From assembly GCA_019096065.1 (NCBI GenBank), contig JAGUCH010000002.1:1500501-1564500 (forward strand): 64,000 nt of DNA, given 5' to 3'. This DNA is from Paracyclopina nana (taxonomy: Eukaryota > Arthropoda > Copepoda > Cyclopoida > Cyclopettidae). Shown in pieces: positions 1 to 49,686 of this stretch (position 1 is its first letter; each line of letters begins with the position of its first letter). Below the pieces are notes generated by a model. It ran no database searches. It had not been told where the DNA came from and saw only the letters and a list, made by a program, of their open reading frames with translations. A program made the translations under genes and the position numbers.

Positions 1-3000
1 CAACATCACGAGACTTTGCAATCTCGCCAAAATGCTCTTGGCCTTCCAATGTTTTTTCCTCCTTGTCATCTGTCATGCAGAAAACACGCAGTCTGGCCTC
101 AAGGACTTCATGACGCTTGGAGAAAACGACAAATCTGCAAAGATAGTTTACATATTACACATGGGAAAATAAAGATTTGTTGAAGATAAATTTGCAGCCA
201 ACAAGGATCATGGAGATTTTCCATAGGCAAATTTTTGTTTTTACAAATGCAGTTAAAAATGAAAATATGGGTGATTTGGCTACAAATGAAGTGGGAAGAC
301 ATTTCATTTACTTGGCCATGAATGGGACATGTATTGCTTCTCTGTAGAGCTCAGTGGCCATTTTGGTTGCTTCACCAACATTTCTGCAATCCATGAGCCA
401 GAACCTGGCTGACACTGTAGTGGTGAAGTTGACACAGTCATTGACAAAGTGCAAGGGAGTCGATCCAGTGACATCTTCCCACTGAGCCCTGGTTGTGCCT
501 CCTAAAAAGATGACACCATGAGATTTTTGTAAGGTATGCCTAATGTTGCTCAAACTGATGAAATGACTTTAATTTCTAGCAGCAGTATATAGCCTTTGAA
601 AAAGAGAGAGTTCCATAACATTAGAGATGTCAGTGGTTGATGATGATTATTTTTGTTTTAGTGCACTAGTTGTATAAAGTGTGAATCATATCTGTTTGTG
701 CAGCTAACATGCTCTCACAACTTCTAGATGACGATAATAGCAACAATGATGATGATACACTCTTAAAAACGAGATATCTTGGGAGTAAGTGCAAAAGAAA
801 AAAATCAGCAGCAAGCATCAGCAGCAGGCTGTTCAGGTTGAGAGGAACAATAAGGCTCAAATTCTCTCTACCATTGTGATAGTCATGTTATGTGGGTGAT
901 TTGGGTCAGTGTGATGAGTCTTTTCCACCAGAAAAATAAAGAAAGCTCTAAAAGTACTATTAACATAATTGTCATGCTGGGTCACAATTATTGACAAAAG
1001 AAAGGCCAACTTTTAATTACAAGGCATCACAACCATGGCTTAAGTTTTGCACTCTCTTTGTTAATAAGCTAGAAAAATGTGAATCTTTCTCAAAATTCAA
1101 GTAAATGCAAGGTCAATTTAAAGCAAATTATAAGATTTGTCTAAGGCTAGCATTAGCTTTCTTACAGCTAGATCTTAGCTCAGGCCCAGCTCCTAGGTAA
1201 TTAAGTTCAATGCTTTCTTAGCTTTTCATTTGGGTTTCAACTAGCTTGAAGCAGAGAAGAGTCAGGATTTTATTCATGTAAATCCTAAAGCATTCTTAAA
1301 CAAGCTTCAAGTCAGCTTAATCTGGCCATAAATTTGTCTTGCATCAGTTTAAAACTAGCATTGAACCAGAGTTGAAGCAGTTGCTTAAAATCTGCCTTAT
1401 CCTAAAAACAAGCAATACATGGGCATTGAGTTAACAACAACTTATTATAACCTAACTTTACAAATCCTTAAATTGACCTCAAACAAGAAATGAACTAGCA
1501 TTGAAGAACCATGAAACTAAACTTAAACTAACCTATTGTTGTTTTTCAATGAAGCCTTCAAAAAGCTAAATGAGAGAATACAAATTCTAGGCCCAAAAGT
1601 GAAAGACAGGAGAAGAAGTAGCATTCTTAAGTAATTCAAGGGGTCTTGTACTTGTTCATAATCATGGTATCTTTTCTTTTGGTTGTTGCAGATGTAATAT
1701 CAGAATAATAGAGAGTTTTTTAAGTTTAAAAGAAACAGGAATGTAAAAAAAGGAAAAAGAGACACAACAACATTGACTGCTCTCATTGGGATGTTGAAGT
1801 GATGTAAAAATGATGTAGTAAACAAGAGTCTTTTTTACACATTGGTAGGAGAATTACCTTTGAGTGATCTTTTCCGGAACACGCCTGCTTGCCAAGTGAG
1901 AAAAAAAGAAAAGAAAGAAGTATCACTTTTTTGATTTGCTTTTGCAATGACAAGATCAGATCAAAGGCACTTGTATTCTGGGGTTAGGTCCACCCTCTTT
2001 TTTTCAGGGTGAGAGAGAGAGTAAAATGGCTGTCAAAACTAAAATTTTCATGCTTTTTGCAGACCTATTTCAAGTCTCTCAACACCAAGGGTCTCAAATT
2101 GTTTGGTGGACTTTTTGGGTCCATTGAGTAGTTTTTTTTCCAATAACAACTAAAGGAGGGAAACAGAACTACTATGCATTTGCTCTCAGGAGACAAGAAC
2201 GTTTTTGCTGTCTTCTATGCTAATAAATAAGTAAGGTTCAACAGTAACAATGTACTAGCAAGTGGTCAACTGCCTTGAAGTCAGCAGGTCAAAGGATGAC
2301 ACAATGATAGCAATCATACTAAGCTAGTATATATAAATAAGTAAAGGACACTAGATAATATGTTTTTCTGTAGTGAAAACTATATGATGATGTTGTGATG
2401 AATTATTGTAGAGTAGCTCTTTTTGCTTTTCCAATTAGTCTACATAGAACATAGAGAATGGCGCGAAATGTAAACAGTTTTCTTTCGAATTCTATGTTGT
2501 GAACTACTAAGGCAATTTTTAGATTAAGAACTTTTTAAATTTTTTTTTTTTAAAGTGAAAGGAATTCAAGTTTCCCAATTTAAGGGAGCCATTCTCTATA
2601 GCCTATGTAGAGAGCTATTGCATATGTAATACATATACTGTTGTTATAAGACCCTGCATATAGTAATAGAGAAAGGAAAACACTCAGGAGAGCAAGCATT
2701 TTTTTTTTAGAATCCTAGCTGAAAATAGAATGGTTGATTTTTAGCTACCATACCTGTGATTGAGCATAGTAGCCTTAGTGTAGGCGTTTCTCCGTTATAC
2801 TGGTTAATCATGCCTTTTCCAGCAGCTTGTGGCACTGGAATAGTCAGAGTGATTGGCTTGTGGAACTTCCTTCGACGAGGTTCCACTGTGACAATGGGTG
2901 ACACTGCCACTCTGTTACCCAAGAGCTTGGCAGTCAGCTCCGGAGGAATGGGTTGAGCCTAAGCATAGTGAAAAATACACATAATAAAAAAACTAATTGT

Positions 3001-3950
3001 GATGCAGGATTTGGAGAACTGTAAACCATATACCAAAGTAAATAAATAATGCTGGTGGGGTTCAAATTAAAAAAAAAGAAGCATAAAGTCAGCAGTGACA
3101 ACTGAAAAATTGGTGAGAAAATGCAAAGGCTCCCCACACACACATAAGGACAAAAAATAAATAAATGAAATAATACATTCAATGAAGAATGCCCAAAAGT
3201 CACAGATACATGAAAAAACACCAATAATTTAACAACAACAATAACCATGGATTTTTGTTGGGTGTTGGCAACCTTTGCATTTTTTTTGCAATAATTACAA
3301 GAATTGGTAAGGGCAAAAGTGTAGTATATTGTTGTCTCTTTTTCAATAGCATAGTAATAATTATTTTTTTTGTTTTGGTTGGGCATATCTTCAAAGAATG
3401 CATAGACTTATTGATAAATTGCATATTACAATTTGGTGGTCACAGTTTAAATTGTTTTAGCAGTTGAAGGGTTGGTTTTTGAACAGGAGGGCAAAAATGG
3501 GGCAGATTTATCAGATCTTTGTCACACAATCTCTGTTAATTTGCTTATTACTGAATGAAGGGAGGGGATGATTGCAAAATCAGCCTATTATCCACATTTC
3601 TTGATGCATTTTGGCTCTTACAAATTTTAACCAGAAAAGTGAAGAGTGCCTGAAAATTTAGGGCTCAACTCAAATGTAACATTTGCTGCACCAGGCTTTT
3701 ACTGTTATTTACTGAACTATGTTAATCCAAAATTGAATTGAGAGGTGGATAGTAAGTCTTCACCAAATCAAAGAGAAACGCTTTTTCTTAGGCAAATGGT
3801 TTACAGTGATCTTTTTCAGTAGCCCATTGGGCACCCCTTTGCGAGGCCTGAACATGTTTACCTGAAGGCCAACTTTAATCTTCTTTGTCAAGGCTCCCTG
3901 TGGGAACACAGCTTGCACTTGGGGCACCACTGTGCTGTTCACAACGCCAC
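1..3950 (-). CDS. Ank: Ankyrin second ZU5 and UPA exons (partial)
   Basis: Exon 3950-3862 ([20 protein letters not shown]), 2958-2754 ([20 protein letters not shown]; ends LLCSIT), 501-312 ([35 protein letters not shown]) and 134-1 ([35 protein letters not shown]) are collinear with known ankyrins. The donor of exon 501-312 lies inside the Lys codon of FMAK and the next exon supplies the last base. The window cuts the last exon after SRDV. Confidence 0.93.
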
Positions 3951-6900
3951 CTAGGAAGCCAAAAAAAAAAATTTTTCAAGTCCCTAATGAGAAATAAAAA
4001 AACCTACCTTCAGGTCCAATAGCATGAACCTCCTGTCTGATCCTGGAGACAATAGCAAAATATTGGGGGAAATCCGTGGTCAAAATCCTGGTGATCCTGG
4101 TAGTGTTCAAGTCCTCCAATTGAGTCAACTCTGAAAAGATGCCACATTTTAAAGAAGGAGGAAAAAATTACAAAAAGGCTGTCAAACCGTCAGGGTCAAA
4201 GCTCTCTTGAAGCACTTCTTGGACAGCCTCTTCAGTGGCCTCCAAAGTGTGCTCCCTCCAAGTTTCTCCATTGTCTGACCTCAAAATGACTATCTCCCTT
4301 TCCTTCCCCCTTAAAGCTGCAAAATGTGGAACCTCAATAATGACTGGCCTGAAAAAGATCGGACCTAGCTGGTTAATCCCCAAAATCATGAGATTTCGAT
4401 TTTACCCCAAGAATTTGGCTCCTGAGGGTCCAAGTTCCAAGACTCTTGAGGCAATCGCTTCACCCTCCATTAGAGGTGGAGGGTGGATTAACTTGTCCTT
4501 TTTGAGGTATCTACACGTGATTCTCATGGGCATTGGAGCTTTCCTGGGTGGAATGATGACTCTTACTCCGGAATGCCTACAGCCACGCATAGCTCCACCA
4601 CGAGCATCAACCATGAAGCTCACCAGGAACCTGCATTAATTTGGTAACTTTAAATTGACTGTAAAAAAAGTAGGTCAATACAATCAACAGCAAAAAGTGG
4701 ACACAGCACTTAGAAAATCAAATGCAGGTCAACTATGGAATGGGGAGAAGCAGATATAACTACAAGGATGAAAAAGAGTGACATATTTTTTGCATCACCC
4801 TTTAGGATATGTTTTTTTTGGCAAGCAATGATCAGAAAAAGGCAAAAGCAAAATAAAACAGAGTCTATGTCTCAAATAGATGGAGTGCAACATCTATTGC
4901 TAGCATAAATGAAATAACATACAGGCTGTCTGGCAGAATTTAGCAAGAGCAGCAAAAATCTACTGGACACACTGTATATGTATCAGTAGTTGTTGTTGTT
5001 GTTAGAGTAGCTTTGACTTACGATCTCCAACGAAGTTTTCTGTACATGTACACAAATTAGTTGATGTTAGTAGTTATGAGCGAAATTAGTAGCAGAGAGG
5101 GAGAGTTTAAAGTAGACATAATCCCCAAGGACAAAAATCGGAACTCAAAGTTGAAAAAAGGGAAGAAATGGCCTTTAAAAGGATAGGACATCTACAACTT
5201 AGTTCATTTTATGCCCGCAAGGCAAAACGATGGCGCTCCAAACAAAGTTTAATATAAATTGCTAAAAAAGCAACAAAAACAAATTGGAGCGCCACCTAGC
5301 GGTGATTTTTTGAATAGGTCCAAATCCTTGTAAAGGCAACATAACAGCCCTTCGATATGGGTTTATATCTATGAGAAGGTGGTGCGAACAACAGAAAAGT
5401 CTACAGAATGGAAGATTGGCACAACATGATAGCAAGAATCTGAAGGCAAAATTACTTGGCTCTCCACATGGGTTGGCTGACAAAAAATCATGGTCAAATT
5501 CATTAGTATGTAAGATCACCTCATCATAGAATATATCCCATTAAAAGCAAAGGAAAAAGAATCAGAAGAATGAAAGTCAAAGGAAGGTAAACAAAAAGTC
5601 AAAAAATTAATGTCTACCTTTCCCTCCACATGGAAGACACACTGCGATTTCCCACACTTGTAGCCAAACTAAGATGGCTATGGTTCCCAAGTGTACTCCT
5701 TCAAAAACATAAGATAACAGGTGAACCAAAACAACCAAAACAAAATATGAAATGAATAACCTGCCTAAAACAAAAATGAGCTATGTTGGCCTAACCCCAA
5801 AAACTGAGCTATTCTTAATTTTCCCTCAAGACTTTTTATGCTAGGAATTGACTTACCCAATTTTCAGGGTGGATTTGTTGGGTAAATCCACGTTGTCAGC
5901 TGATGCGTTGTTGACACCAGAGTGATACTCCTTGGTTTTCTCCAAAGCAGCCAATTTTTCCTCCAAACTGCCAGGGGCAGCAGCAGCTGCTGCAGCTCTC
6001 TGTAATTGCAAAAATGTAAACATTAGATGAGAAAACAAGTCTTTTAACTTTCAAGCAGACAAAAATAAGATTTTCCCATTTCTTTTCAATTAGCAACTTT
6101 GCAATTACTGTACTTAAAATCCATGACAGCTGCGCATTTTAGGCACAAAGTGAAATTCAATAGAATTCCAAAAAAGGACATATTTCCTATTTTGGCATAT
6201 CACCTTACATTATTTTCCATTTTGAGGGAAAAAAATTAAGTAAGCTCATAAGATGTTTAACATTATTTTAGGTATTTTAGAATGGTTAAATCAGTAGAAT
6301 TTCTTAGGCCACAAAATAATCCACTGTGACTTGGCACAAAGGAGAAAAGTACTTAGATACCAAAAAAGGCAAAAACTAGCTTTTTTGCTACAATCAAATG
6401 GAAACTCCAGTTTCCCAATAAAACAGATAAATGACACACCCATCATCATGACATTAGCTTTTTTTCTGACAATTACCTGGTGGTACACAGTGGATGTTTG
6501 CTCTTTTGTGGAGATGAGTTTTTCATCATGAGTGACATCAATTGGCATTGAGTCATCTCCCAAAGACTTCATTTCATCCACAGTCAAATATTTGTACGAG
6601 GATTCTCCCAGCATGTTCTCCTCACCTGCAAATAATTTCAAATGACAATTGATCAAGGACAACAGTGCGGTGGTGGAAAAAAAAGTGAAACCTTTGGCTG
6701 AAACTTCATATTGGCCATGATGGCAACAAATTTGCAATTTGCAGCAGCTCTTAGCTGGGCTCATTGCTCAAATCGAACTGGCTCAAAGCTGCAGCAGGAT
6801 TGCAAAATCCTTCAAAAAATCTAGTGGCTTGAGGAACCTGTTTTGCAAGCATTTTTCACTCAAAACTGAGCGTTTTGTGAGTGTTTTCTGCAAAATCACT

Positions 6901-9900
6901 ACACAAACAACGATATTTTTAAGTAGCTCACTTTTCTAAGAAACAGAGGTTTTTTTAATAAGTACTTTAAAAAATAGCAAATTTTTTTTAAATGAATTTA
7001 TTGAAAGAAATATGTTCTGAAAATGGCAAGCTTCATTACCTTTGTCAAAACAGCAATTTAGATAGCTTAAAAGTATCATGATAAGATTATTTTAAAATTC
7101 AGCTAAAACTTAAATTAAAAGTAAAGTGTACCTTTGAGGAGCAAATTCATTACAAAAGTTCTGTAATAGCTAGTGTCACAATTATCCATGTTTGCAAGCT
7201 GAGCTTGAAACAGTAACTCACCAAGCATAAAAAAGCTGAATTTGGCCAAATCGAAGACTATTCACTTTATTCAGCAATCTAGTCAGCTGATGAAATCACA
7301 CACTTTTTTCCCACACAGCATGACTGGAATTTTGCAGAAAAATTATTAAAATTCCTCACATGATGCTGCACACTTCAGAATTACTTCTTTTTTACGCGTA
7401 ATCCTCAGCTGTTGATAATCAGTCAAGCTAAGACAAAATTGAGGATTTTCATCCTTTGCTCTTATGGCCAAGGAGACTTACTGAGCTCCAAGTTGGACAT
7501 GCACACTGGGGGTCGTGACCCTGTAAAAAGTGCCATGATGGCCTTAAGCCACTCTCACAGACACTACCTGCTCAAAGGCATATTTGAATCATAACCCCTT
7601 TGAAGCTACGGTTTTCCCATAGTGCTATTTATTGAGCCAAGGTAAGTAGTTAGCCAGTATGTAAGTCATGAAAAAGCAAACATAACATTCAAGGTCTAAA
7701 AGCAGCAGCAGCAGCTATTAAAAGAGTCAATATTTTGGCCAAGTGGAAGTTAGCATGTTTAATTCAGTGCTGCTTCACCTGGCTAATGTACAAATGTATG
7801 CATCTTGGAATCTAAAAGTGAGAGTTGAAACCAGTCGTGAGCTGGCATTGTGCAAAATCTAGGGGGTCACTATGCATATTCAGACATACGTGACACATTC
7901 AGTGCCGCTATTATGCAGCATTAAACTGGAGTGGAATAACCCGCAGTGACGTCACGATTTGTTTACAAACAAAGTTTGCCACGTGGCGCGCGGAAAGCGG
8001 GACAGTACTGCACGCGCGCACTGCTGCTCACAGCTTTGCTGTTGTTATTGTTAGTAAATGCCACTTTTTCTACTTGAAATCACTATTTTACTTACTAGGC
8101 TGGCCTAACGTGGCCCCTTCATAACCTGACATCAGTTCAAGATGATGAACATCCTGGCCATTGGCAGCTTGTGTGCCATAAATGGCAGAATCTAGCAAAT
8201 CTTCGCCTAGTTAACAAAACAAAAAGGAAAGAAAAAAACGAACATAAAGAAGGGGGGAAAACAATGGACTTACCTCCTTCGTCTTCAGAGTCGGACATAA
8301 AAGTCTCTTGCATGGACTCTGGTGCCAGGACTTTGTACTTTTCTTCAATGGTGGTGGTGGTTGTGGTGGTGATTTCCTGCTCAGTGACCACCTTGAGGGT
8401 CTCAACCACCGAGATGTATCCAAGCCTCTGGGCAATCGACAAGGCAGTTTGGCCATTCTGCAAACAGAAACCCATTTTCAAAATTAGATATTCAAAGGCA
8501 TTTTTTTTCACTTTAACTTGTTAGGTGTCCAAGGCGTGATGCTGAGCAACACAGCCTTGGATGATTTGAGCAGTTGTCTAAAATTATTTTTCCTCCGAGC
8601 TAAATAATGTCTTAATTAGTAGCGCAACTGATGAAGCAAACTTGGCCTCGCTCCGCTTAAATAAAAATGCTTACGTTAGAAACAATGTTTGGCTCAGCGC
8701 TGCCAGTTTCAAGGAGCAAGCTGACAATCTGAGAGTGTCCTTGCTGAGCTGCCTGATGAAGTGGAGTGTATCCGAGCTCATTCTGGCCATTGACCACAAC
8801 TTGCTGGTCCAGCAAAAACTTGACCATGCTGGCTGATCCGAAATGGGCAGCCACGTGCAATGGGCTGTACCCAGCTTTGGTGACAGCATTCAAGTCGGCC
8901 TCGTTGCCAGCCAACACTTCAGCCACGTTGATCTTGTCCTCCTGTGCACACAAATGGATTGGAGCCAGGCCATTCTTGGCTTGGGCATTGGGATCAGCAC
9001 TGTGCTTGAGCAGGAGCTTGCCCATATCCATATGCCCTTCCTGAGCTGCCAAGTGAAGCGGAGTGAATCCAGCCTTGGACTCGGCGTCAGTTTTGGCTCC
9101 ATACTCCAAAAGGCTGGCAGCAATGTCCAGCTGGTTCTTCTTGGCTGTGATGTGCAGTGGAGTGTATCCATTCTTGGCTGCAGCATGTGGAGATGCTCCC
9201 TAACATGAAAAAGGAGAGTTAACTATGGCCTCAAAAGGAGTGTTTGATTTTTTAGTTACTTTGTCAAGGAGAAGAAGTGCCACATTTTGGTGGTCATAAT
9301 GAGCTGCCACGTGGAGTGGAGTGACTCCATTCTTGCCCTCAGCATCAACAGGAGCATCTTTCTCCAGTAGGAGCCTCGATACTTTGAGGTTGCCATATTT
9401 GGCTGCCAAGTGCAAGGGAGTGAAGCCCTTCTTGGTGGCTGCAGTGAGAGAGGCCTTGTGCTCCAGCAGGACTGAGGCCACCTCTTCCTGGCCTTCCTTG
9501 GCAGCAATGTGCAAAGCGGTGTACAGATCTTTGGTGGTGGCATCCACTTGAGCTCCGGATTGGAGCAACAAGACCACAATGTCCACATTTCCCAATCTGG
9601 AGGCAATGTGAAGGGGAGTTTGCTGCTCCTGCGAACGAATAAAAAGTTATGATAAACGAGCGTAAAGTTCTGCTGCATTGCACCAAAAGCTCGGTCTCAC
9701 ACTCTTTCAGCAAAGTTGGAACGAAGAAAAGCTCGGCACATTTGTGGTGTCTGGCTTAACAACTACTTTGCTGATTGGCAGCAACCTCGGTCGCTATCTT
9801 TTGAGCCGATTGCGCTAATGAGCTAGCCACAATGGAGGCCTCCATTAAAAAGACATTAAGCTACAAAGAATAGCAACAAATTTTAAGTGGATAAAGTCTG

Positions 9901-12900
9901 ATGTATCTAGCATGAATGGGGCAGGCTATCTCAGTTTTCGCAACCAAGTTTGACGTCAATCAGCTCAAAAGTTGTAAAGCGAAGAGTCTCAAAAGAACTT
10001 TGATTAGTTCCATTCCAACTTTGCTGAGAGAGTGCGAGAACGAGCCAAAGACTCACCCGAGCACGAGCATCCACTTGGGCCCCATTTCTCAAAAGGATTC
10101 GAATGATGTCCGTTTGGTTGGCCCTGGCTGCCAAATGTAATGGAGTCTCTCCGCGTACAGTGGCCTCGTCCGGAGAGGCTTGGTGTTGGATCAAGAAGAT
10201 CACAATGTTCATGCATCCCATGAAGCTGGCCACATGCAGGGGAGTGAGTCCGGATTCAGTGGTGGCCTCGATGGAAGCTCCATACTTCAAGAGCAGTTCC
10301 ACAACTTTGATCCGGTTCTTCTTGCAGGCAATATGCAATGGAGTGAAGCCGTTGAGGGCTCGGGCATTCGGGTCAGCCTTTCGGTCAAGCAACAGCTTGG
10401 CCACCCTCACATGGCCACAGTGGGCAGCGACATGCAAGGCGGTCAAATAGTCCACTGTGACCTCATCCACAGGAGCTTTGTGGTGGAGCAGGATCCTGGC
10501 TGCATCCACATGGTCACCCTGGCTGGCCATGTGTAAGGGAGCAAGGCCATTTTTGGTCTTTGCTGAAATGGGGGCTCCCCTTTGGACCATCATGTCCACC
10601 ACATTCTCATGGCCTGACCGGGCTGCACAGTGGAGTGGGGTGAGGCCATCCCTGGTCTTGGCCTCCAAATTGGCTCCTTTGTCCAACAAGAGAGCCACCA
10701 TGTTCGCCTTGCCCCATTTGGCAGCCACATGCAAAGGGGTGATGTTATGCTGAGAAAGATACACATTGAGAATGCTAAAAAGCTGAAGGCTAATCTTTGT
10801 GCTCACCTTGGCAGCATAATTGACATTGGCGTTCCTCTGCAGCAAAAGAGCCGCAATGTTCTCATTGCCATAGTGGGCAGCAATATGCAGGGGAGTGAAT
10901 CCGGATTTGGAAGTGACATCTGGATTATGGTCGTTTTGCAACAGCAAACCTGCAGCCTTTGTGTCATCCTTCTTGGCAGCGATGTGCAATGCAGGCAGTC
11001 TCACTTTGCCTCTTGTATCATTTTCTAGCAGAACTGCCACCACCTAAAATCATCATAGTTAGAAGATAGCAGATTTATTTTTTGACGAATGAAAATCCTA
11101 AGCATTCAAATGTTTATTGATGTCCATGCATGGAGCATAGATGAGAATCCTAAGCATTGAGAGCCTTTCAAAAAAATTGTATCATTTGTCACTCGGCATC
11201 AGCTATGATTTCTTCAAGTTGAAAAGCTTGTTGTCAACAATCAAGCATATCAAATATACTTTTTCAAAAGTTCATGAAGTAGTTTTTGAAGTTCATCCAA
11301 TAAAAAGTGAGCATTGATTCCAAAATCAAATCATCGCAATTAATGTTTTTGTGTAGATGCATTGATAATAGATGATAATCCTAAGATTTAAGACCCATTC
11401 AAAAAATTATCATCCTACGACACTCGGCTTCATCAATGATTTCCTCAAGTTGAAAAGCTCTTTTGCAATAATCAAGCATTTCAAATGTACTTTCTCAAAA
11501 GTTCGTAAAGTCGTCTTTGAATTCTATCCAATTAATAGTAAGCATTGGATCCTTATATGAAATCATCGTCATAAGTACACATGACTTTGATTCATGTCCA
11601 TGCATTGAGCATCGATGAAAATCCTAAGCATTGATACCCTTTCCAAAAAAATTAAATCATTTGTCACTCGGCATCAGCCAAGATTTCTTCAAGTTGAAAA
11701 GCTTTCTTGGCAAAATCAAGCATTTCGAATGCATGAATCGCATGGAGGCTTTCTAGCCAATCTACCTTATCATGTCCTTGCTGGAGGGCCACAGCTAAGG
11801 GCGTGAATCCATCTTCGGTGGCCAAGCTCTGATTGGCTCCACTTGCCAACAAAAACCTCACAACTCCATCATGGTTCTCCTGGGCTGCCATGTACAAAGG
11901 AGTGAAGCCATTTTGGGATTGCACATTGACAGCACTGCCAGCCTCAACCAAGATTTTCACCACAGCTTCCTACACATAAAAAGAACTTTAAATTGAATTA
12001 TCAAAGGACTATTTTTTGCTGGCTTACTTGACCAGCCAATGAGGCAATGTGGAGGGCAGTGTTGCCCTTTTTAGTGGCAGAATCAATTTTGGCACCCCTG
12101 GCCAACAATTCTTCCACCACAGACACATGGCCTTCTTTGGATGCCAAATGGAGAGCATTGAGTCCATTCTAAATGCGGAAAAATAGAGTTGAATGTATTT
12201 TGGTATTATCATAATTATATAGCTTACAGCATTGCAAGTGTTGATGTCAGTGCTGGCTTTTAAGTACTCGAGGACTTTTTCCAGGTTTCCTCCCCTGGCA
12301 GCTCTGAGGAAGCTGGCATTGTCATCAGACTGTAAAATAAAATGGAGAATACTTGATTATCTTTGATTTTTTACAATGGAGAAAAAAGCAGTGCTTTAGC
12401 AGTCAAGAGGCTTTCTCAAGCCAATAATAGTGCACGAGCCTGGGCCTCAAAGGCCTTTTTCTCAAGGCCATTGACTCTTATAGTACTACATGTACACTAT
12501 AACTGGAGGCAAAATTATGGCTATTTCCTTAATATATATGCCAAGTAAACTATTTTTCAGATGCATTTCTGCCATATTGCCTAGTGTGAATTTTCAGCCT
12601 TTAGCTACTGAAATTTCCCAGCTTCCAGGTGAATTTCCACAATTTTCTCACTGCCATGCACTTGGGACAAAATTAGCATAAATTGGAATATATGCAATGG
12701 CCAAAGCTGGAATTCAGCCAACTTTTCCCATTAAACAAGGCCTTCGCAACTTTTTATATGCAGTAATTTAAAAGGCCTTAACTTCTTTAAAATTAGATTA
12801 GGGGCTAAAAAAGTACTTCTTTTTTGGTGTGGCAAAGATTTTCTGTCCTGAAGTGGAGAGAGAAAATCAACTTCCACAGGAAATTCGATATTAGTACCTA

Positions 12901-48000: not shown

Positions 48001-48574
48001 CGTGGGTGGCAGCTCATTCTGATGGTTCCCCGATGATAAAAATCCGTTCATCTCTAGCATAAACATGAAAACTGAGAGTTTATCTTCCACTACTATATTG
48101 CTTCTACTCAGCAATTTGGGACTCGCGTAGCATTGGTGGAGCAAGCCTTAACTTTAAGGATCCGGGTCACGCGAGCTTCAAACTACTATCACTCAAATGC
48201 CTTGGCTCCTGCTATATAGCATGCATTACAATGAAAGAAATGGGATTTGGGAGTGTTGATTTAATTAGTGGCTCTTTGAAAAAAGAACCACTCAGCAATT
48301 AGCTGAGACTGCTTCTTTTCTTTTCTCATGAATCCATTTATATTTTTCAACTTTTTTCATGAAATGTGGCTTGGCTAACTTAAATCGGAATTATAACTGA
48401 GAAATCTCAAAGTGCTAACTGAGACTACCTCAGCTTTAGCTAAGAGTATCTCAGCTTTGAATGGGAAGATCTTTTGATCATAATGTCAGTTTTTATTGTA
48501 ACACTATTTCAGTTTGAATGGACTTTTCTCAGCTTTATAAGAGGGTATCTCAATTTTAACAATGACTATCTTCT

Positions 48575-48785
48575 CAGCTTTAAATGAGACTATTTCAAGT
48601 TTAACTGAGTCTACCTCAGTTTTGACTGAGTCTATCTCAGTTTTGACTGAGTCTACCTTAGCTTTGACTGAGTCTACCTCAGCTTTGACTGAGTCTACCT
48701 CAGCTTTGACTGAGTCTACCTCAGCTTTGACTGAGTCTACCTCAGCTTTGACTGAGACTACCTCAACTTTGACTGAGACAAAGAC
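48575..48785. repeat. 21-nt minisatellite (GAGTCTACCTCAGCTTTGACT)
   Basis: About ten copies, with decayed relatives from 48,395. Because 21 is a multiple of three, both strands stay open as seven-residue repeats (ALTESTS on plus, VKAEVDS on minus). No start context, splice sites or neighbours support coding. Confidence 0.88.
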
Positions 48786-49686
48786 GCAGAACAATTCAAC
48801 TTTTTGGAGTGAGGTAGCTCATAATCAATTGTTGAAATTTTTGCTTATTCATTAAGAATTTTGAATATGGTCATTTCTGCCTGAGATTCATTTGCACAAA
48901 ATTGCAAGGCACTGGACAGTAGTATATGTATGTGAAAATTGCAGAGTCACTGATGAAGCAGAAAATTGCCTAATTAGCATCAGCAATGGTGCAAAGCAAA
49001 GATTGGGCAATTTTCCTCAAAAAATAATCAGCAGCCCCCATCAACTAGCATAGTGGCAATAAGCTGAAGGGTGGAGTTTTTTGGCCAATTTTATGGTGCT
49101 CCTGAAAAAAATCTAGCATAATCATCCTGGCCTTGGTTTAGGCTTCTCGGTACTTTAGGATGTTGTGGTAATGTCGATGATGATAAAAATGATCATCATG
49201 ATTGTGAAAAATTGCTACCATAACACACTTTTCAACAAGTCTTGACATCACATAGTTACGCGTATTTTTCATGCAGCAAAAAATATAGCAAATATGTTTG
49301 GCATATTTGTAAACACACAAGTGGTTTGTTGCATGATTGTATCTGTTGATTTTCATCTGAAAGGCAGAAAATTGCAATAAAAAACACCGAAAAGCAATCC
49401 TTAAAAATGCTCTTGTAAACGTTTAGAGCAGCGCCATCTTTTTCACAAGCGGCCAAAAAATGAACTAAGACCTCCAATATAGGCTACCTCATTTTCCGTT
49501 CACTTCACGCTATAATTATTTACATTATCCAAGGCTCATGTAATTATGTGATTATTTTTCTATTTGCAGGCATCATCGCAGTTCCTACTGCATTCAATCT
49601 CAGGGGTTGAGAGCTAATTAAAAAACACTGTCAAAATTGGGGTGATCATATCCAAGAAGTTATCAAGTGCTTCCAATTCTTCTTTT

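Follow-up and report, generated by a model that had tools for sequence, protein, structure and literature searches.

Ankyrins connect proteins of the membrane with spectrin. In mammals, ankyrin genes carry microexons (a size class of 3 to ~30 nucleotides, nt; PMC12148930) that alter the excitability of neurons (PMC12713133), and mis-splicing of such microexons occurs in a disease model (PMC12148930). For mouse Ank3, the exon table in PMC4449188 places two optional exons ahead of exon 26, which begins GTGAA: exon 23, of 63 nt, and exon 24, of 54 nt. A further optional exon of 33 nt, exon 30, is located in the intron that precedes exon 31 (225 nt, starting GTTTC); it is seldom included in heart and occurs in three expressed sequence tags (ESTs) from neural tissue. 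In ankyrin-B, a small divergent exon of the linker represses the ankyrin repeats by covering them and controls membrane binding, and optional exons just 5' of this linker exon are mentioned in the same source (PMC3663501). Here we analyze a 64,000-nt stretch of the genome of the copepod Paracyclopina nana (the window; GenBank assembly GCA_019096065.1, contig JAGUCH010000002.1, positions 1,500,501 to 1,564,500), which holds the middle of an ankyrin gene. We propose that this is probably a giant-ankyrin gene in which optional coding pieces, each in frame, occur at three places, two of which correspond to positions of optional exons in mouse.

The ankyrin gene lies on the minus strand, and its middle part covers window positions 1-11969. 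Sixteen exons picked by eye (A to P) join into one frame of 1247 residues without stops, which runs through ankyrin repeats (likewise recognized by eye), a linker, two ZU5 domains (ZU5N and ZU5C) and the beginning of UPA. In the introns of this frame we find five candidate exons, all with AG/exon/GT borders and all on the minus strand. The first-pass annotation, made from the letters of the window, had listed four of them, and these are present just as it described, with canonical borders, lengths divisible by three and phases that fit the flanking exons. They comprise a 39-nt exon (7482..7520) in intron G-H, phase 1, whose 13 residues would follow the repeats in the linker (acceptor 7.6 bits, donor 5.3 bits); an 81-nt exon (5618..5698) encoding a Ser-rich block of 27 residues (7 Ser) that ends SSMWRER, and a 21-nt exon (5456..5476; acceptor 3.3 bits, donor 7.2 bits) encoding QPMWRAK, both in frame in intron I-J, phase 2; and a 27-nt exon (1858..1884) encoding VFRKRSLKG in intron N-O, phase 1, with a 30-nt form at 1858-1887. 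The set was incomplete, however, since an 18-nt exon (5022..5039) encoding KLRWRS, also in intron I-J and in phase 2, had been overlooked. Because the host introns are of phase 1 (G-H and N-O) or phase 2 (I-J), each insert is in frame, and all 96 of 96 combinations of exon G, the 39-, 81-, 21- and 18-nt exons, and no, 27-nt or 30-nt insert in intron N-O read without stops. By size, the 18-, 21- and 27-nt exons fit the definition of in-frame microexons; those of 39 and 81 nt exceed it. In the protein, exon G and the 39-nt insert belong to the linker that follows the ankyrin repeats, and the 81-, 21- and 18-nt inserts sit directly before FLVSFMVD, where the ZU5N match starts.

The three exons in intron I-J resemble one another. 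Each carries Trp-Arg near its end (SSMWRER, QPMWRAK and KLRWRS), and as this pair occurs within the last five positions of random stop-free peptides of local composition at a frequency of 0.0023 to 0.0025 per exon, its presence in three of three is improbable by chance. CCATGTGGAG is common to the 81- and 21-nt exons, and TGGAG to all three. This shared Trp-Arg ending suggests that they form a tandem exon family, with gaps of 141 and 416 nt between its members. Among the 33 candidate pairs listed in a splice-site scan of the gene's introns, the 81-nt exon has the highest summed splice score and the 18-nt exon ranks second. An origin of the 81-nt exon and its flanks as a genomic repeat was ruled out, as they occur at a single place in the genome.

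The 27-nt exon stands out by its splice signals: no other of the 354 intronic GTs makes as good a donor, and among 374 intronic AGs a 23-nt pyrimidine run like its own occurs only at its NAGNAG twin, an acceptor 3 nt upstream that would yield the 30-nt form as well. Both features were selected after inspection. VFRKRSLKG falls between CSIT and GGTT; in the constitutive ZU5-ZU5-UPA piece, which has 376 residues, it follows residue 269. It had been assigned to the border between the second ZU5 and UPA, but because the Pfam UPA match starts only at residue 327, the insert lies inside ZU5C. The Pfam ZU5 match on ZU5C stops short of it, and a BLASTP comparison of ZU5N with ZU5C gave no useful alignment for assigning it to a particular loop. 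In the three human alignments listed, VFRKRSLKG is an exact nine-residue gap; human ankyrins align without it, so the skipped form would give an ordinary ZU5C. We take the RKRS within this basic segment to be a look-alike of a kinase site. As for the 81-nt exon, a genomic-repeat origin of the 27-nt exon and its flanks was ruled out by their occurrence at a single place.

To compare these exons with chance, we scanned 7872 intron bases for acceptor-donor pairs 9-99 nt apart, using donor and acceptor matrices trained on only 15 constitutive introns, all of this gene, and 300 dinucleotide shuffles as control. With an acceptor score of at least 3.2 bits and a donor score of at least 5.2 bits, a setting just under the lowest scores among four of the exons, the introns held 12 pairs, of which 7 were divisible by three and 5 of these open, against shuffle means of 8.8, 3.2 and 1.2; 5 of 300 shuffles reached five open pairs. 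With the acceptor raised to at least 7.0 bits, three pairs remained, all divisible by three and all open (shuffle means 1.8, 0.6 and 0.25), and no shuffle in 300 matched this. From 35 kb of non-coding DNA in the same window, scaled to the scanned length, 2.02 and 1.57 open pairs would be expected on the two strands at the looser setting; for the stronger one the values are 0.45 and 0.22. The five open pairs found at the looser setting are the 81-, 18-, 39- and 21-nt exons and a 51-nt pair (7354-7304), which is probably a decoy.

Exon borders around the inserts can be laid alongside those of mouse Ank3 (PMC4449188). Exon J (4406..4630, minus strand, as are all exons given here), which is 225 nt long, starts GTTCC and opens ZU5N, resembles mouse exon 31; exons L and M (123+89 nt) together match the 212 nt of mouse exon 33; exon N (2754..2958, ZU5C) ends CACAG and exon O (312..501, ZU5C to UPA) begins GAGGC, as mouse exons 34 and 35 do; and the linker exon H (6477..6625) begins GTGAG, close to the GTGAA of mouse exon 26. 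Exon I (5857..5999), on the far side of the Trp-Arg slot, is constitutive and was taken from the joined frame. These comparisons use position, length and five letters at each end only, from which descent is not judgeable. Mouse exon 30 shares both intron and phase with the slot of the 81-, 21- and 18-nt exons (...GG/GTT before the 225-nt ZU5 exon), which holds one exon in mouse and three here, and mouse exons 23 and 24, also of lengths divisible by three, occupy the slot of exon G and the 39-nt exon. Two of the three slots here therefore hold optional in-frame exons in mouse too, and because exons 23 and 24 occupy the same place, exon G itself (8096..8206; 111 nt, phase 1-1) is perhaps optional, a status that we take from the mouse table. 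It is possible that exons arrived independently in the same slot in the two lineages. In the slot of the 27-nt exon, between exons 34 and 35, the mouse table lists no exon.

The genome also encodes an eMIC-type SRRM domain. The SRRM-type gene lies at C6:1984650-1984811 and neighbouring positions on the minus strand; the match to PF15230 scores 24.2 bits in one exon and 56.4 bits when the next exon is joined, a 57-nt intron splitting the domain. Microexon machinery is thus present in this genome, and these five exons may or may not use it. In flies, eMIC-dependent exons are reported to have UGC close to the acceptor, an extended stretch free of AG and strong branch points (PMC8797185). The AG-free distance here is 104, 62, 43, 22 and 3 nt for the 18-, 81-, 21-, 39- and 27-nt exons; CTAAY words occur within 50 nt upstream of two of the five, the 18-nt exon having three of them, and no Rbfox-like GCAUG lies within 150 nt of the exons. 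The main text of the fly and worm papers (PMC8797185 and PMC8042270) mentions neither Ank2 nor ankyrin, and the passages of PMC5697891 on unc-44 discuss splicing-factor motifs and describe no microexon there. Neural use of the exons is plausible on circumstantial grounds, namely the ESTs with mouse exon 30, the giant frames downstream of the gene (described below) and the eMIC domain.

Borders, frame, the excess over shuffles, the two splice signals of the 27-nt exon (donor and pyrimidine tract), the Trp-Arg peptide in three of three exons, the mouse slots and the eMIC domain all support a giant-ankyrin gene with optional in-frame pieces at three places, which we hold to be the probable reading of this locus. 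The interpretation offered by the first-pass annotation, of optional in-frame microexons in an ankyrin gene, is borne out by splice signals, frame, Trp-Arg likeness and mouse slots, but its neuronal part is circumstantial. Several observations weigh on the other side. The optional pieces are predicted here from genomic sequence, and the score thresholds of the scan were fixed after the exons had been seen. When the donor threshold is raised to at least 6.0 bits with the acceptor kept at 3.2, the excess is weak (3 open pairs against 0.77, reached by 19 of 300 shuffles), and the acceptor of the 27-nt exon fails the small matrix at -1.1 bits. UGC is absent from the last 40 nt before the acceptor in all five exons. 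One ankyrin-like paralog in the same genome, the only one resolved at this point, has no intron before FLVS; it reads unbroken into FLVSFLVD, and there is therefore no intron slot for an 81/21/18-nt trio in that gene. A scan of viral and genome contigs with the ZU5-ZU5-UPA protein (10 and 87 pattern matches) confirmed no relative.

Sequence, splice signals, frame and positions are read directly; from them we infer inclusion and skipping, neural enrichment and effects on the protein. In the proposed scheme, exon G and the 39-nt exon would each be spliced in or skipped after the ankyrin repeats, the 81-, 21- and 18-nt Trp-Arg exons would each be optional immediately before the first ZU5, and the 27/30-nt microexon would be optional inside the second, with inclusion plausibly enriched in the nervous system. 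The linker pieces may tune how far the linker covers the groove of the ankyrin repeats, the best-founded of these effects because a vertebrate ankyrin-B linker exon represses the repeats (PMC3663501); the effect was shown in vertebrates, and its extension to exon G and the 39-nt exon is our conjecture. The Trp-Arg pieces would alter the stretch entering the spectrin-binding ZU5N, and the 27-nt piece would add a basic segment to ZU5C; for both, an effect on the binding of spectrin is guesswork based on their location.

How the exons are used could differ from this scheme in two ways. The 81-, 21- and 18-nt exons may be a duplicated-exon set spliced in a mutually exclusive manner, one per transcript, as might be expected of exons that share an intron, a phase and similar 3' ends. 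We consider this rather unlikely, given that their lengths are unequal, that spacings of 141 and 416 nt leave room for joint splicing, and that the frame is kept whether all are skipped or all included. It is unlikely, too, that the five exons are real but always included in this lineage, or that they serve tissues other than the nervous system, such as muscle. Full inclusion of the trio would set three Trp-Arg stretches in a row, the three human alignments listed do without the 27-nt insert, and the neural ESTs of mouse exon 30, together with its rarity in heart (PMC4449188), speak against this reading; on the other hand, all five donors score 5.3 to 9.0 bits, like constitutive ones, and the other optional pair of mouse Ank3, exons 23 and 24, is common in heart (PMC4449188).

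Some or all of the exons might instead be decoy splice-site pairs that never enter messenger RNA (mRNA). At the looser setting, shuffles already yield 1.2 in-frame open pairs and the non-coding DNA of the window 2.02 and 1.57 on the two strands, and the 51-nt pair among the five found is probably just such a decoy. Yet three pairs stand against 0.25 at the stronger setting, where none of the 300 shuffles keeps up, decoys would not be expected to share the Trp-Arg likeness of the trio, and at the 27-nt exon the top donor among all introns coincides with the top pyrimidine tract; we therefore give decoys only a slim chance. Optional in-frame pieces at three places in a giant-ankyrin gene thus remain our favored reading.

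The identity of the gene itself is clear from its domains. The ZU5-ZU5-UPA part matches human ANK2 (PDB 6m3q, E 1.8e-170), and a PDB search with it matched eight distinct sequences, six ankyrins and two ZO-1; Pfam recognizes ZU5 twice and UPA_2 in the gene's protein, and UPA_2 and Death in the extension of exon P, and human ankyrins align with the last repeat and the start of the linker. Exon P extends to the left of the window as a single open frame of 276 residues that runs from UPA into the death domain with no intron between, and the canonical ankyrin set of ANK repeats, ZU5-ZU5-UPA and death domain is present. After the death domain, on the same strand, follow open frames of 576, 1836, 612, 232 and 1133 residues (C2:1483299-1498853), which by their look are candidate giant-ankyrin exons that may enter the mRNA. 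Two diverged ankyrin-like ZU5-ZU5-UPA genes lie elsewhere in the genome (C3:10662197-10665267 and C3:1619398-1621728), and among the long frames listed near both, no ankyrin repeats were seen. The genome as a whole has 80 matches to PF00379, which point to an arthropod; PF02949 and PF03392 had no match, but as they matched in no control either, they carry no information. Separately, at window positions 48504-48855, a frame of ~10-residue tandem repeats reads SVKAEVD on the minus strand and ALTEST on the plus strand.

Set beside other known ankyrins, the gene resembles the giant ankyrins of bilaterians in having ankyrin repeats, ZU5-ZU5-UPA and a death domain, followed here by very long candidate coding exons; the putative downstream coding sequence is divided among several frames here and forms a single one in the mouse giant ankyrin (PMC5135030). 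Mammalian ANK2 has an optional in-frame 12-nt microexon near the S901 site, under the control of MBNL and SRRM proteins (PMC12148930), which we infer to be the counterpart of the 12-nt exon 27 of mouse Ank3; that exon lies between exons 26 and 28 (PMC4449188), the position of intron H-I here, where our splice-pair scan listed no candidate microexon. The 27-nt exon resembles mouse Ank3 E35a in being an optional ankyrin exon of 27 nt and nine residues, and E35a is neuron-type specific (PMC12713133, a preprint). The two are nonetheless not the same exon, since E35a sits between UPA and the death domain (PMC12713133), a region that is intronless here, and the copepod exon lies in ZU5C.

What is new here is the trio of tandem Trp-Arg exons, in a slot shared with mouse, and the microexon inside ZU5C, for which a literature search of one open-licence library found no precedent. 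Splicing could thereby tune ankyrin at two points of the protein, one directly ahead of ZU5N and the other within ZU5C. An intron slot common to mouse and an arthropod, filled here by a tandem set, would also allow a direct test of how old this layer of control is. As a tentative and somewhat doubtful extension, the phase-2 intron before ZU5N may have served as a neural microexon slot ever since the ancestor that arthropods share with vertebrates, in which case the copepod lineage would have expanded this slot into a tandem Trp-Arg set and added a microexon in ZU5C, with up to 96 forms tuning the linkage of ankyrin to spectrin.

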